Assembly (NCBI RefSeq): GCF_016734905.1
Contig: NZ_JAERPO010000001.1
Span: forward strand, 620,001-684,000
From: Sphingopyxis jiangsuensis
GTDB taxonomy: Bacteria; Pseudomonadota; Alphaproteobacteria; Sphingomonadales; Sphingomonadaceae
Reading direction: 5' to 3'
Length of the DNA: 64,000 nucleotides
How positions within the stretch are numbered: position 1 is the stretch's first letter; every line of letters begins with the position of its first letter. The notes under the pieces are model-generated. The model had not been told where the DNA came from, searched no databases, and saw only the letters and a list, made by a program, of their open reading frames with translations. Of the stretch, positions 3,203 through 49,716 are shown piece by piece. The position numbers and the translations under genes were made by a program.

Positions 3203-3468
3203 TCGACTGGATCCCCGGACGCGCCGCGGATGTCATCGGCTTGATCGGCACCGCATGCGTCCTCGCCGCATTCGCCTATATCAACAGCGCAAAAGTGCCG
3301 AACGGCGTGCTGTTCAACGCGGTCAACCTGATTGGCGCGCTGTTGCTGATGATATCGCTGCTCGTCCATTTCAATCTCGCCTCTTTCCTGCTCGAAATTG
3401 CCTGGGCGAGCATCGCCATCTGGGGATTGGCAAAGGCGCTCCGCCGCGGGCGCGAGGATGCGGCATGA
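3199..3468 (+). CDS. Small membrane protein (CBU_0592-like)
   Basis: The 89-residue protein has about three hydrophobic segments (residues 10-27, 38-57, 62-80) and a short basic C-terminus (KALRRGRED). It resembles a small conserved family of unknown function often called CBU_0592-like. It is translationally coupled on both sides: its ATG overlaps the aroA stop and its TGA overlaps the cmk start, so it belongs to an aroA-x-cmk operon. There are no catalytic motifs, and a transport role would be a guess. Confidence 0.8.
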
Positions 3469-4094
3469 TTGTCGCGGTCGATGGCCCGACCGCGTCGGGA
3501 AAAGGATCTATCGCCCGGCGGCTGGGTGAATATTTCGGCCTGCCCGTGCTCGATACGGGCCTTCTCTATCGGGCGGTCGGTTACCAGACGCAGCTCAACC
3601 ATGGTGACGCCGACAACGCCTCCGACGCGCTTGCTGCCTGCGATTTCCCCGACGACCTGCTCGACGATCCGGCGCTGCGCTTCGAAAGCACCGGAAGTCT
3701 TGCGAGCCGCGTGTCGATCCACCCCGCAGTGCGCGCAGCACTGTTTCAGCGCCAGGTCGATTTCGCCAACCAGCCAGGCGGTGCCATACTCGACGGGCGC
3801 GACATAGGGACCGTCATCGCGCCGCACGCCGATGCCAAGCTGTTCGTGACCGCGAGCGCCGAGGAGCGCGCCCGCCGGCGCCAGGCCGAGATGCTCAATC
3901 GCGGCCTCGATGTCGGGTACGAGGTCGTGCTGGCCGACATTCACGCCCGCGACGCGCGTGACACCGGCCGCGCCGACGCCCCGCTGCTGCGGGCGAACGA
4001 TGCGATGCTGCTCGATACGAGCGCGATGGACATTACGGCTGCGGTCGCGGCGGCGATCGCATTTATCGAGGAACGGGTCAGGCGACCCAGTTGA
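3465..4094 (+). CDS. cmk: Cytidylate kinase
   Basis: It phosphorylates CMP and dCMP with ATP in pyrimidine nucleotide metabolism. The 209-residue protein starts [20 protein letters not shown], which contains the P-loop GPTASGKG. It continues with LDTGLLYRAVG (the CMP-binding region) and LDGRDIGTVIAPHADAKLFV, both typical of the family, and an ARRRQAEM lid region. The start at 3465 overlaps the preceding stop by 4 bp. The 3' end converges on the adenylate cyclase gene and the two overlap by 17 bp. Confidence 0.95.
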   Translation: MIVAVDGPTASGKGSIARRLGEYFGLPVLDTGLLYRAVGYQTQLNHGDADNASDALAACDFPDDLLDDPALRFESTGSLASRVSIHPAVRAALFQRQVDFANQPGGAILDGRDIGTVIAPHADAKLFVTASAEERARRRQAEMLNRGLDVGYEVVLADIHARDARDTGRADAPLLRANDAMLLDTSAMDITAAVAAAIAFIEERVRRPS

Positions 4095-5358
4095 TGTCGG
4101 GCAGCGCCGGTGCACGCGGCACCGAGTGATAGACGCAGGTTTCGCCGACGCCCTTGAGCAATTCACTATGCGGCGGACCGAAGGCGGCGCGGCCTTTCGC
4201 GCGCAGCCATGTGCTTTCGGAAATCGCGATACCGTTGACCGGCGCGCAGCCTTCAAGGCGTGCCGCCATGTTGACCGTCTCGCCCCAATAATCATAGGCC
4301 ATGCGCGTGGCACCGATAACGCCGCCGACGACGGGCCCGCTGTGGATGCCGACGCGCAAGCCGACTTCGGTGCCCGCAACCGGCTGCAGCGCCGCAACCC
4401 CGGCAAGCACATCCTGCGCAAAGGCGATGGCAACGTCGGCGCTGTTGCCGACGCTCTGGTTGCCGCCCGCGATGGCGAGATAGGCATCGCCGATGGTCTT
4501 TACCTTTTCGACGCCATGCTTTGCCGCACAGCGGTCGGCATGGTTGAAAAAGGCGTTGAGCAACTCGACGAGATGGCCGGGCGACACACGCTGCGCGAGC
4601 TTGGTGAAGCCGACCATGTCGATGAAGATCACGCTGGCGTCGGCATAGCTGTCGGCGACCATCCGCCCGTCGCGAATCCGTTCGACTGCGGCAGGCGGGA
4701 GCATGTTGAACACGAGTTCCTCGCTCTTCGCGCGCTCGACCTCGAGTTCTTCCGATAGGGCGAAGGCGGCGCGGCTCGACCGGTCGATGGCGAAATTGAT
4801 CGCGATCATGACCAGCGCGCCGCTGACATAGCTGAGGATTGCGTACCAAAGGCCGGCGCCGTGATCCTGGATCGCCATGACCGTCGCGAGGAACACGACG
4901 CATTCGAGCGCGAGCCACAAGAGGAACAGGCGCGGTCGGCCTGCCAGCGCGACCGCCGCAAACGCCGTTATCGCCAGCCGGTTGATCGCGCCCACCGCGT
5001 GGAGGTCGTCGTCAAGTTCGATCAGTTCGGCGAGCAGGACGATGTTGACGAGCCCGACAAGCAGCGAAATGCCGAGCAGGGCCGCAAAATCGAGCGCCGG
5101 TTGTTTGATATAGCCGCTCCAGAAGGTCACTGCGACATAGGCGCCCGCGAGAAGCAGCACCGACCCGAGCAGAATTGCCAGAAAGGCAGCGTCATGGGCG
5201 TGCAGGAACAGCGGATTGGCAATCGAATAGGCGAGCGCGACGAGCATGAAGAGCACGCCATAGATACGCACGAACGGCAGGCGCAGCGTCCGCGACGCCG
5301 CCTGATAGCGCTCCTCGACACTCCGGTCCATGAAACGGCCGCTTATCGTCGCCTGCAT
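4078..5358 (-). CDS. Membrane-anchored class III adenylate/guanylate cyclase
   Basis: The 426-residue protein makes cyclic nucleotide from ATP or GTP. Residues about 25-195 form five or six transmembrane segments. A short linker rich in charged residues (SEELEVERAKSEELVFNMLP, a signalling-helix-like stretch) precedes the catalytic domain. Catalytic motifs visible are FIDMVGFTKLA (first metal Asp), VKTIGDAYLAIAG (substrate Lys and second metal Asp), GIHSGPVVGGVIG and YDYWGETVNMAARLE (transition-state Asn/Arg). The Asp in YDYWGE favours ATP over GTP. It stands alone on the minus strand between cmk and rpsA, genes that are neighbours in many proteobacteria. Confidence 0.92.
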   Translation of the reverse strand: MQATISGRFMDRSVEERYQAASRTLRLPFVRIYGVLFMLVALAYSIANPLFLHAHDAAFLAILLGSVLLLAGAYVAVTFWSGYIKQPALDFAALLGISLLVGLVNIVLLAELIELDDDLHAVGAINRLAITAFAAVALAGRPRLFLLWLALECVVFLATVMAIQDHGAGLWYAILSYVSGALVMIAINFAIDRSSRAAFALSEELEVERAKSEELVFNMLPPAAVERIRDGRMVADSYADASVIFIDMVGFTKLAQRVSPGHLVELLNAFFNHADRCAAKHGVEKVKTIGDAYLAIAGGNQSVGNSADVAIAFAQDVLAGVAALQPVAGTEVGLRVGIHSGPVVGGVIGATRMAYDYWGETVNMAARLEGCAPVNGIAISESTWLRAKGRAAFGPPHSELLKGVGETCVYHSVPRAPALPDINWVA

Positions 5359-34590: not shown

Positions 34591-34896
34591 GGCGGCTCCT
34601 TCTCCCTTGGCTCGCGGCGCGCGCCGCCCTTCCCTTATCGCGGGCGCCGCGGTCTGCGGCAAGAGTGCTTTGGCAGTCGGGCGGCCGATGCCGCGGCGCG
34701 ATGGCGGCCGACGACGATCCGGTGTCCGCTAAAGCCCGGGTTTCATCGCGCGAAGAACTCTCCCTATTGCGCGCCTGACAGCCGGCGGCAATAGCATCGC
34801 CCGTCTCGCGTGACTGACGCTTGAGATGGGGCACCATCGGGAAGCGCGAGCATGATCGGCCGCGCGTCTGGGCATCCATCTCGCAAGGAGGAACCG
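34591..34896. other. 306-bp divergent intergenic region, serB / LysE gene
   Basis: It separates two divergent genes and should hold both promoters. I see no ORF with a good ribosome-binding site and no convincing RNA structure. A strong Shine-Dalgarno (AAGGAGG) lies at its right end for the LysE gene. Confidence 0.5.
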
Positions 34897-48023: not shown

Positions 48024-48126
48024 TCCTCCCTGTTGCGCAGCAATGGGGAGATGGCAGCGCAGAATCCTCCCTGTGCCCGCAGGGCATGGGGAGGGGGACC
48101 GCTCGCAAAGCGAGTGGTGGAGGGGG
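48024..48126. repeat. Palindromic repeat, TCCTCCCT/GGGGAGGA family, intergenic copy
   Basis: It contains two related hairpins; the second (TCCTCCCTG..CATGGGGAGGGGGACCGCTCG..CGAGTGGTGGAGGGG) is the reference copy for the element found inside bioD. It lies directly after leuA. Confidence 0.8.
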
Positions 48127-48160
48127 GCCCAAGCCAAATCATCCCGCTTGCGGTCATACT

Positions 48161-48193
48161 TTGCATGATCTTGTCTAACGCAATAAAACAAGA
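48161..48193 (+). promoter_or_regulatory. Promoter with inverted repeat upstream of the two-gene island
   Basis: TTGCAT (48161-48166) and TAAAAC (48184-48189) are separated by 17 bp. TCTTGT (48169-48174) and ACAAGA (48188-48193) form an inverted repeat overlapping the spacer and -10 region, the position expected for a repressor site. Predicted only. Confidence 0.45.
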
Positions 48194-48236
48194 CAGCATG
48201 TCCGTACTTAACGATCGACGTTGCTGAGGGGGAAAT

Positions 48237-48860
48237 ATGGCTGAGCAAGATATCGACGCTCTTCTGGCGCGCATGCCTGAAATTGCGACGGCTGTTAATG
48301 CTTTCAAATCCGAAAGCGTTCAACAGGCCGCGTTTGACGCACTCGTTTTGGCATTTGGCGTAACTGACGATAATCTGAAAAATGCCGAAGAGTCACCTAT
48401 TCGGCAAGCTAAGACGCCTAAGCAGACTCAAACGACGCGCCAAGCCGCTAAATCCGAGAACTCGGGGCGTCAGAAGCGAAAGTCGCGGGCGACCGGCGGT
48501 AACGCCGGAGCAACGATAACACCGGTGAAAGATTTAAACTTACGTCCGAAAGGGTTAGAATCGTTCGATGACTTCATTGCGAAAAAACTTCCAAGAAACA
48601 ATCAAGAGAAATTTACTATTGCTGTCTATTGGCTTGAAGAAATTGCAAAGGTTAGCCCGGTCACGCTCGCGCACCTAGCAGCGATATTTAAGCAAACTTC
48701 CGGATGGAGAGAGCCCGGAAATCTGAAGGTCGGCGTCCAGATGACGGGATTTCGAAAGAACACAATCGACACGTCGGACATGAGCAACCTGCGCACGACC
48801 CCGCATGGACGAAATTTCGTCGAACATGATCTGCCCTCAAAACCCACGAAGAATAAATGA
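48237..48860 (+). CDS. Hypothetical protein with C-terminal winged-helix-like domain (island gene 1)
   Basis: The 207-residue protein is unlike its neighbours in base composition (visibly AT-richer). Residues 1-50 are helical and acidic, 55-95 a Lys/Arg/Gln-rich flexible linker (TPKQTQTTRQAAKSENSGRQ), and 110-200 a compact domain: EKFTIAVYWLEEIAKVSPVTLAHLAAIFKQ, then GNLKVGVQMTGFRKN and LRTTPHGRNFVEHDL. The last pattern (T-x2-G-x3-V) is typical of the wing and final helix of winged-helix DNA-binding domains. GAGGGGGAAAT precedes the ATG. The stop overlaps the next start by 4 bp. Function unknown; probably the DNA-binding member of a two-gene module. Confidence 0.7.
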   Translation: MAEQDIDALLARMPEIATAVNAFKSESVQQAAFDALVLAFGVTDDNLKNAEESPIRQAKTPKQTQTTRQAAKSENSGRQKRKSRATGGNAGATITPVKDLNLRPKGLESFDDFIAKKLPRNNQEKFTIAVYWLEEIAKVSPVTLAHLAAIFKQTSGWREPGNLKVGVQMTGFRKNTIDTSDMSNLRTTPHGRNFVEHDLPSKPTKNK

Positions 48861-49630
48861 GCGGATTAGATTCTAGCAAAGCGCTAACCGGAATCCCCGC
48901 TGCGCTCAGAACTCCACTTGTTGATGAATTCAACAAGCTCGTGCGGCACTACCGCGAAGGACGATGGGAGCCCGCCGAACTGAATGGCGGGAAACTTTGC
49001 GAAATTGTGTATTCAATTTTGCGAGGGCATGTTGACAATAGGTTCCCTTCCCGTCCCTCCAAACCTAGGAATATGGTGGATGCATGCCGTGCATTCGAAA
49101 ACGAAACCGCGTTCCCTCGTTCTGTGCGCTTCCAAATCCCTAAGATGCTAATCTCGCTGTATGAAGTGAGAAACAATCGGAATGTCGGTCATGTGGGTGC
49201 CGACGTCGATCCGAACCACATGGATGCAACGGTAGTTCTGAGTATCACGCAGTGGATCATGGCGGAGCTCGTTCGCCTTTTTCACACCGTCAGCACGGAA
49301 GAAGCGACAGAAATCGTAAATAGCTTGGTAGATCGGACCTTTCCGCTGCTATGGAAGGTTGGTGACAAAGTAAGAATTCTGGACCCAAATATGAGCGCAA
49401 AAGACAAGTGTCTAGCTCTGATTTATGGATCAATTGGACCTCAAAATGTTAGATTTATCGTAGATTCCATAGAATATTCTAATATAACACAGTTCAAAAT
49501 TAAAGTTCTGAAACCAATGCACAAATCTAAACTCATCGAATACGACAGGAAGAACGAATCTGTATCAATATCCCCTTTGGGGACTGCTTATGTCGAAAAG
49601 AACATCCTTCCATCCTGTACGATAATCTAA
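48857..49630 (+). CDS. HEPN-like protein with C-terminal winged helix (island gene 2)
   Basis: The 257-residue product is coupled to gene 1 by an ATGA overlap. Residues about 15-140 are all-helical, with KLCEIVYSILRGH and LYEVRNNRNVGHVGAD. The latter contains R105-N-x5-H112, fitting the Rx4-6H motif of HEPN ribonucleases. Residues about 185-255 (KDKCLALIYGSIGPQNVRFIVDSIEY...SPLGTAYVEKNIL) look like a winged helix. HEPN proteins are common in toxin-antitoxin, abortive-infection and other defence systems; this specific architecture I do not know as a named system. GC content is low, in line with horizontal acquisition. Confidence 0.7.
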   Translation: MSGLDSSKALTGIPAALRTPLVDEFNKLVRHYREGRWEPAELNGGKLCEIVYSILRGHVDNRFPSRPSKPRNMVDACRAFENETAFPRSVRFQIPKMLISLYEVRNNRNVGHVGADVDPNHMDATVVLSITQWIMAELVRLFHTVSTEEATEIVNSLVDRTFPLLWKVGDKVRILDPNMSAKDKCLALIYGSIGPQNVRFIVDSIEYSNITQFKIKVLKPMHKSKLIEYDRKNESVSISPLGTAYVEKNILPSCTII

Positions 49631-49716
49631 GAGATAAGATCTCAAAAATCCCCCTTTCCTACAATTCACCCATATGGTTCATTCTGTCGGTTTTAACTCA
49701 CCGAAAGGACGAATCG

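Follow-up and report, generated by a model that had tools for sequence, protein, structure and literature searches.

A widespread gene pair encoding a predicted HEPN/winged-helix protein and a winged-helix partner is a candidate for an uncatalogued self-shutdown system of bacteria

Introduction

Two short open reading frames (ORFs) lie between leuA and the next gene in a 64,000-nt stretch of Sphingopyxis DNA (hereafter, the window), in the segment with the lowest G+C content of the entire window. Where did these genes come from, are they inherited as a pair, and what do their products do? Here, we analyzed the locus, its relatives, and the predicted structures of both proteins, and we conclude that the pair has the appearance of a bacterial self-shutdown system, so far uncatalogued and probably directed against phages.

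Results

Location, composition, and boundaries of the unit

The unit and the features at its edges are as follows.

48150..49650 (no strand assigned): whole unit, i.e., leader, gene 1, and gene 2; approximate bounds from comparison with relatives
about 48066–48128 (no strand assigned): REP-like palindrome, a dispersed repeat directly before the unit
48169..48193 (no strand assigned): inverted repeat TCTTGT-N13-ACAAGA, a possible operator; from a pattern count, kept in locus L014
48857..48860 (+): ATGA overlap of gene 1 and gene 2, from the ORF coordinates

As an earlier note on this DNA had described, the two genes are coupled by the ATGA overlap, the island is AT-rich, and it sits between leuA and the next gene, right after a palindromic repeat. 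Specifically, the G+C content of positions 48161–49630 is 47.5%, compared with 65.1% for the whole window, and none of 256 sliding 1,470-base windows proved lower. The two flanking genes give the pair a core-gene setting rather than that of a defense island. On the left, the non-repeat sequence common to the unit and its counterpart in Sphingopyxis sp. LC363 (L014) starts at 48150, and on the right, the stretch just 5′ of the next gene is common to LC363 and to L109, a locus without the pair. The 18-base core of the REP-like palindrome occurs at three places in the window (≤3 mismatches), a related pattern has six exact copies elsewhere in the genome, and LC363 carries a shortened REP-like element that also lies directly before the pair. 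The repeat may be the insertion target of the unit or part of an exchanged piece. Elsewhere in the window, a ZTP riboswitch was matched at 34800–34880 on the (+) strand (Rfam RF01750, 55.7 bits).

The TCTTGT/ACAAGA inverted repeat had also been thought to overlap a predicted −10 element. The repeat itself is present (one match vs 0.01 expected in shuffles, for a pattern defined after its discovery), but the overlap did not hold up, as a promoter scan found no sigma-70-like site there. The repeat is kept in L014, a 94% identical sister that is too close to inform on conservation. The pair may be autoregulated, this leader repeat being the one feature that points to it.

Probable gain or exchange of the unit in Sphingopyxis

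The closest relative of the pair is found in LC363, where it likewise follows leuA, with one 158-aa ORF in between. The gene 1 and gene 2 products of the two genomes are 92% and 96% identical, respectively, and DNA identity amounts to 94% for the pair genes vs 86% for leuA; at third codon positions, it is 90% and 86% for the pair genes vs 75% for leuA. Since the pair genes are closer to each other than the leuA genes are, gain or exchange of the unit is probably a later event than the divergence of the neighboring leuA. The pair was absent after leuA in all 29 other loci examined in the genus, each followed for ~1.5 kb or to the contig end. In three of these 29 (L096, L105, and L109), leuA is followed by a homolog of the window's next gene, and L109 retains the sequence preceding that gene as in the window.

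A different arrangement was seen in 2 of 39 related genomes, where a partial second leuA 3′ end lies ~0.6 kb past leuA, with other sequence between (L106, 3744–3971; L114, 3834–4065). Insertions may recur at this position behind leuA.

Gene 2 codes for a predicted HEPN domain fused to a winged helix

48857..49630 (+): gene 2, proposed HEPN ribonuclease (RNase) effector, 257 aa; from ORF, alignment, and model
48899..49282 (+): HEPN domain, residues 15–142; from the model (pLDDT 92.1) and VIA Z scores
49169..49192 (+): HEPN Rx6H motif R105-N-N-R108-x3-H112, invariant in 87/87 proteins
49349..49618 (+): C-terminal winged helix, residues 165–254; MarR-like, VIA Z about 10

The structural model of gene 2 (mean pLDDT of 92.1) is helical up to residue 142 and ends in a winged helix, in agreement with the domain layout that the earlier note had read from the sequence. 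With VIA-align, the best HEPN structure was 2hsb (AF_0298; Z of 12.0, 124 residues aligned, rmsd of 3.2), followed by 3o10 (sacsin, 10.8), 1ufb (TT1696, 10.2), and the Csm6 structure 6tug (9.9), and the C-terminal part aligned with MarR-type winged helices at a Z of about 10. Because helical bundles easily attain such Z values and Foldseek returned nothing with an E-value below 0.05 for the model, the HEPN assignment needs fold, motif, and position jointly; taken together, these three identify the N-terminal domain as a predicted HEPN domain. A search of PDB sequences with the gene 2 profile gave chance-level matches only.

The motif R105-N-x5-H112, whose conservation had been proposed as a check, is present in the window protein, and both R105 and H112 are invariant in our alignment of 87 gene 2 proteins (window included), all of which have the form R105-N/S-x5-H112. 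Also invariant are G45, E49, R108, D123, W133, R140, and G242. Passages of PMC3710099 describe HEPN variants with a six-residue spacer between R and H and a polar residue after R, and they give a second motif with an acidic residue, typically Ex3[KR], for many HEPN families. In the gene 2 family, the glutamate of this second motif (E49) occurs in 87/87 members and position 53 is T in 40, S in 30, and R in 8, so that few members have the full Ex3[KR] (R53 in 8/87). Gene 2 had one match in 30 of 31 genomes and two in the remaining one.

Gene 1 codes for a predicted winged-helix partner with a flexible linker

48237..48860 (+): gene 1, proposed inhibitor/sensor partner, 207 aa; from ORF, upstream place, and model
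48243..48353 (+): N-terminal helical module, residues 3–39, of a type that varies in relatives; from model and alignment
48354..48563 (+): flexible linker with a Lys-rich part, residues 40–109; pLDDT under 50 at residues 51–74
48564..48830 (+): winged helix, residues 110–198; VIA Z up to 8.0

The gene 1 model (pLDDT of 82) bears out the flexible Lys-rich linker and the winged-helix-like C terminus claimed previously: the linker is predicted to be disordered, and the C-terminal domain aligns with winged helices at a VIA Z of up to 8.0. The winged helices of gene 1 and gene 2 show weak mutual similarity (hhalign probability of 60, E-value of 8.6e-5).

The two genes occur as a pair across 18 phyla

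A scan of genome contigs with gene 2 yielded 156 relatives, of which the best 80 were kept (L014–L093, 96 to 41% identity). The phylum was known for 76 rows of the tree, that of the window among them, and by these rows the best 80 of 156 relatives represent 18 phyla, one of them archaeal. The family is sporadic closer to home; counting the genome of the window itself, gene 2 relatives were found in 8/296 genomes of the order and 3/398 of the phylum. Searches with gene 1 by class gave 1/240, 2/246, and 2/229 genomes, the last two counts including the seed genome.

Next, we asked if homologs occur as a pair, a check suggested when the pair was first noticed. Among the best 80 of 156 relatives, a partner-type frame lies upstream of gene 2 in 80/80 loci, on the same strand and within about 200 bases. 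A script recovered gene 2 in 78 of these loci and, in 76, an ORF of 110 aa or more upstream of it, although the frame picked in L025 and L043 was wrong; ten loci, i.e., the doubtful ones plus two others, were checked by eye, and each has a partner-type frame. The frame is cut by the contig end in L038 and has in-frame stops in L043 (one) and L027 (two). BLAST clustering placed 69 of 75 partners (window included) in three clusters, with the other six lacking a link to the rest and judged alike from their position and by inspection. Profile comparison connects the two large partner types (probability of 92, E-value of 5e-7). A same-strand upstream partner is also present in eight more distant loci (L002–L007, L011, and L013; partial matches L008 and L012 not counted), at ~340 bases in L007. 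In L009, the relative from an archaeal plasmid, no partner lies upstream on the same strand.

The gene 2 tree (79 rows) displays 31 changes of phylum vs 3 changes of partner type, as raw counts with one partner type dominating. The few changes of partner set against the many changes of phylum indicate that the two genes seem to travel together, and the pair seems to move horizontally as one unit. By eye, a second gene-1-like gene is located near the pair in 7 of 78 clustered loci, upstream in six (L023, L026, L043, L076, L085, and L087) and downstream on the other strand in L093. Three-gene variants with two partners were found in L005 and L006.

Genomic neighborhood and carriage by mobile elements

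One viral contig (L013) carries the pair, and genes nearby resemble, by eye, umuC/umuD as well as genes for phage lysis and tails. Scans of viral contigs with gene-1 profiles and with the three-gene subfamily as query returned none. Gene 2 matched one protein of an archaeal plasmid and none in phages, gene 1 had no match among plasmid proteins, and searching BFVD by fold revealed nothing with an E-value below 0.001.

Three of the 32 pair loci considered (31 genomes) have N6_Mtase at a distance of up to 10 kb vs 0.36 expected (P = 0.006), an enrichment from a small sample in which this was the sole neighbor family tested and 31 of 58 genomes entered the statistic. An additional N6_Mtase, outside this statistic, lies about 1 kb from the pair by coordinates in L075/G1438. 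Across the 78 clustered loci, no neighbor family occurs in more than seven, and ordinary families occur in up to six. PADLOC matches among 277 neighbor ORFs (from a rough gene caller) include DarT, DarG, AbiEii, DrmMII, R-M, mads, dGTPase, MzaA, PD-T4-6, and one ORF matching the DRT model RTasPolA, among the matches listed (the first 25 of 259 and of 59 families); we take these as presence only, not as enrichment.

Partners of the gene 1 type also precede other effectors

Searches with gene-1 profiles found partners beside effectors other than gene 2. In L159 (3833–5601), one partner that shares 41% identity with the L093 partner and a second, beta-type partner (by eye) accompany a 260-aa effector, which we read from its sequence as an N-terminal winged helix followed by a C-terminal Rx4H HEPN domain (R-N-A-C-G-H). 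On viral contig L161 (about 3274–4732), an effector 65% identical to that of L159 (RNGCGH) follows a gene-1-type partner, and this partner is 38–39% identical to those of L005 and L006, which precede members of the gene 2 family. Neither BLAST nor profile comparison revealed similarity between the L159/L161 effector and gene 2. Its C-terminal part matches the PADLOC model PD-T7-3 (E-values of 1.9e-5 for L159 and 1.4e-8 for L161), which part of PMC9519451 presents as an anti-phage system; that source counts six systems with HEPN-like motifs, but the HEPN reading of the matched region belongs to the effector, not to the source's account of PD-T7-3. The effector also weakly matches the solved chain Dandelion-hepn (E-value of 0.024), and the L159 protein had no match in searches of plasmid and phage proteins. 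Judging from these arrangements, gene-1-type partners apparently exchange effectors.

In L160 (3373–4684), a beta-type partner is followed by short ORFs that look broken and match DUF4145 weakly (E-value of 0.026). These are apparently what is left of a third type of effector, now decayed, whose HEPN motif resembles that of DUF4145.

Comparison with protein-family libraries and the literature

The window pair had no match in Pfam, PADLOC, or NCBIfam, and its sole library match was that of gene 1 to one PHROG family of unknown function (weak, E-value of 0.02). Comparing the 87 gene 2 members with PADLOC gave no strong match (best E-value of 0.0017, to a CARF model, in four members), and PD-T7-3 is not among the models matched by them or by the window pair. 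Hence, the window proteins are covered by no library model of known function, and their relatives not strongly. A description of this two-gene architecture was not found in the literature searched, which lay largely outside subscription journals.

Gene 2 shares its fold and R-N-x5-H motif with HEPN superfamily RNases such as Csm6/Csx1, the Abi families, and HepT, but, unlike these, it is unmatched in Pfam, NCBIfam, and PADLOC, carries a fused C-terminal winged helix, and has a winged-helix protein as partner. Among these, the Rx6H motif in rows of Abi_C (PF14355) aligns with that of gene 2. The domain layouts differ, the curated cut-off of Abi_C was not reached by the window protein (no match) or by any of the 87 members (best E-value of 0.021, in two), and profile comparison gave non-significant probabilities of 2.8 (four rows, one or more of them in the wrong frame) and 0.8 (two rows). 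As a putative HEPN effector module, the pair is new in composition but not in principle.

Discussion

How might such a pair work? With moderate confidence, we favor a two-gene module in which gene 2 is a HEPN RNase effector silenced by gene 1 and freed most likely by a phage component. Gene 2 would be an endoribonuclease with an active site of R105 and H112, probably together with E49, R108, and D123 and probably formed in a dimer. Gene 1 would bind gene 2 and hold it silent while probably sensing the trigger or a nucleic acid. If a phage component (the most likely cause) or a similar stress displaced or removed gene 1, the freed gene 2 would cut cellular RNA and halt growth, as in abortive infection. 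RNase activity, inhibition, and the phage trigger are what we infer; a partner-first gene order, a constant motif, variable N termini of the partner, and an apparent exchange of effectors fit a sensor/inhibitor coupled to an effector. A role in defense finds indirect support in carriage by a viral contig, nearby methyltransferases, and the swapped effector that matches PD-T7-3. Points against the favored model are the core-gene surroundings of the pair, the single neighbor family behind the enrichment, the weak homology among some partners, the missing same-strand partner in L009, the rarity of a full Ex3[KR], the lack of a strong PADLOC match to gene 2, and the viral-contig scans with gene-1 profiles, which were empty.

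An ordinary type II toxin–antitoxin or stress/addiction module, with gene 1 as a labile antitoxin that regulates its own operon and gene 2 as a HEPN RNase toxin without specific phage sensing, is rather improbable in our view but the strongest competitor. Its layout of two adjacent genes with a conserved partner, on one strand in 80/80 loci, is that of the pair, and the overlapping or closely spaced genes, the leader inverted repeat, and the sporadic occurrence fit it as well. However, the diverse N-terminal modules of the partners and the two-partner variants suggest sensing, and the effector found in place of gene 2 matches the anti-phage gene PD-T7-3. The HEPN/MNT (HepT/MntA) toxin–antitoxin system resembles the pair in being a two-gene module with a HEPN toxin. 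The pair differs in its partner, which models as a winged helix, and no match to a minimal nucleotidyltransferase (MNT) was found in the window pair or in 42 partners.

We consider it unlikely that the pair is a nucleic-acid sensor akin to type IX retrons, with a different DNA or RNA serving to silence it, although these retrons offer the closest mechanistic parallel found, by analogy. As described in part of PMC13405049, their winged-helix protein and HEPN RNase are locked silent by RT-DNA until a phage helix-turn-helix protein opens the lock. Like this system, our pair encodes a HEPN protein together with a winged-helix protein, and both gene products end in winged helices with weakly similar profiles. 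However, type IX retrons contain a reverse transcriptase (RT) and msDNA, and inspection by eye revealed no convincing RT-motif ORF near the pair in 80 loci (4 kb, some cut by contig ends) or in the window (~6 kb); the active sites also differ, the HEPN protein of these retrons lacking the canonical motif according to PMC13405049, whereas the Rx6H motif of gene 2 is invariant. Retron membership itself was rejected on the missing RT ORF, and the Rfam matches of the window included no retron RNA.

Least probable of all is a regulatory pair in which the HEPN domain does no more than bind RNA or protein, with both winged helices being ordinary transcription factors, since, despite the two winged helices and the existence of inactive HEPN proteins (e.g., many MtlR members, according to a section of PMC3710099), R105 and H112 are constant in 87/87 members over 18 phyla and no neighbor family occurs in more than 7 of 78 loci.

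The favored reading, an effector silenced by its partner, can be extended, tentatively and with more doubt than belief, to a prokaryote-wide modular immune family. Winged-helix partners with exchangeable sensing N termini would control exchangeable HEPN effectors (HEPN–winged helix with Rx6H, winged helix–HEPN with Rx4H, and perhaps a DUF4145-like type), and the paired winged helices would form a nucleic-acid-gated lock, i.e., an RT-less counterpart of the type IX retron.

The pair is a compact module of 1.5 kb with an invariant RNase-type motif, present in 18 phyla, yet the window proteins lie outside every family of known function in the four protein-family libraries. Were it active, gene 2 would represent a new family of RNase effectors with a built-in winged helix, controlled by a partner that apparently exchanges effectors, and this exchange would make the signal sensed by the partner directly testable with natural variants.
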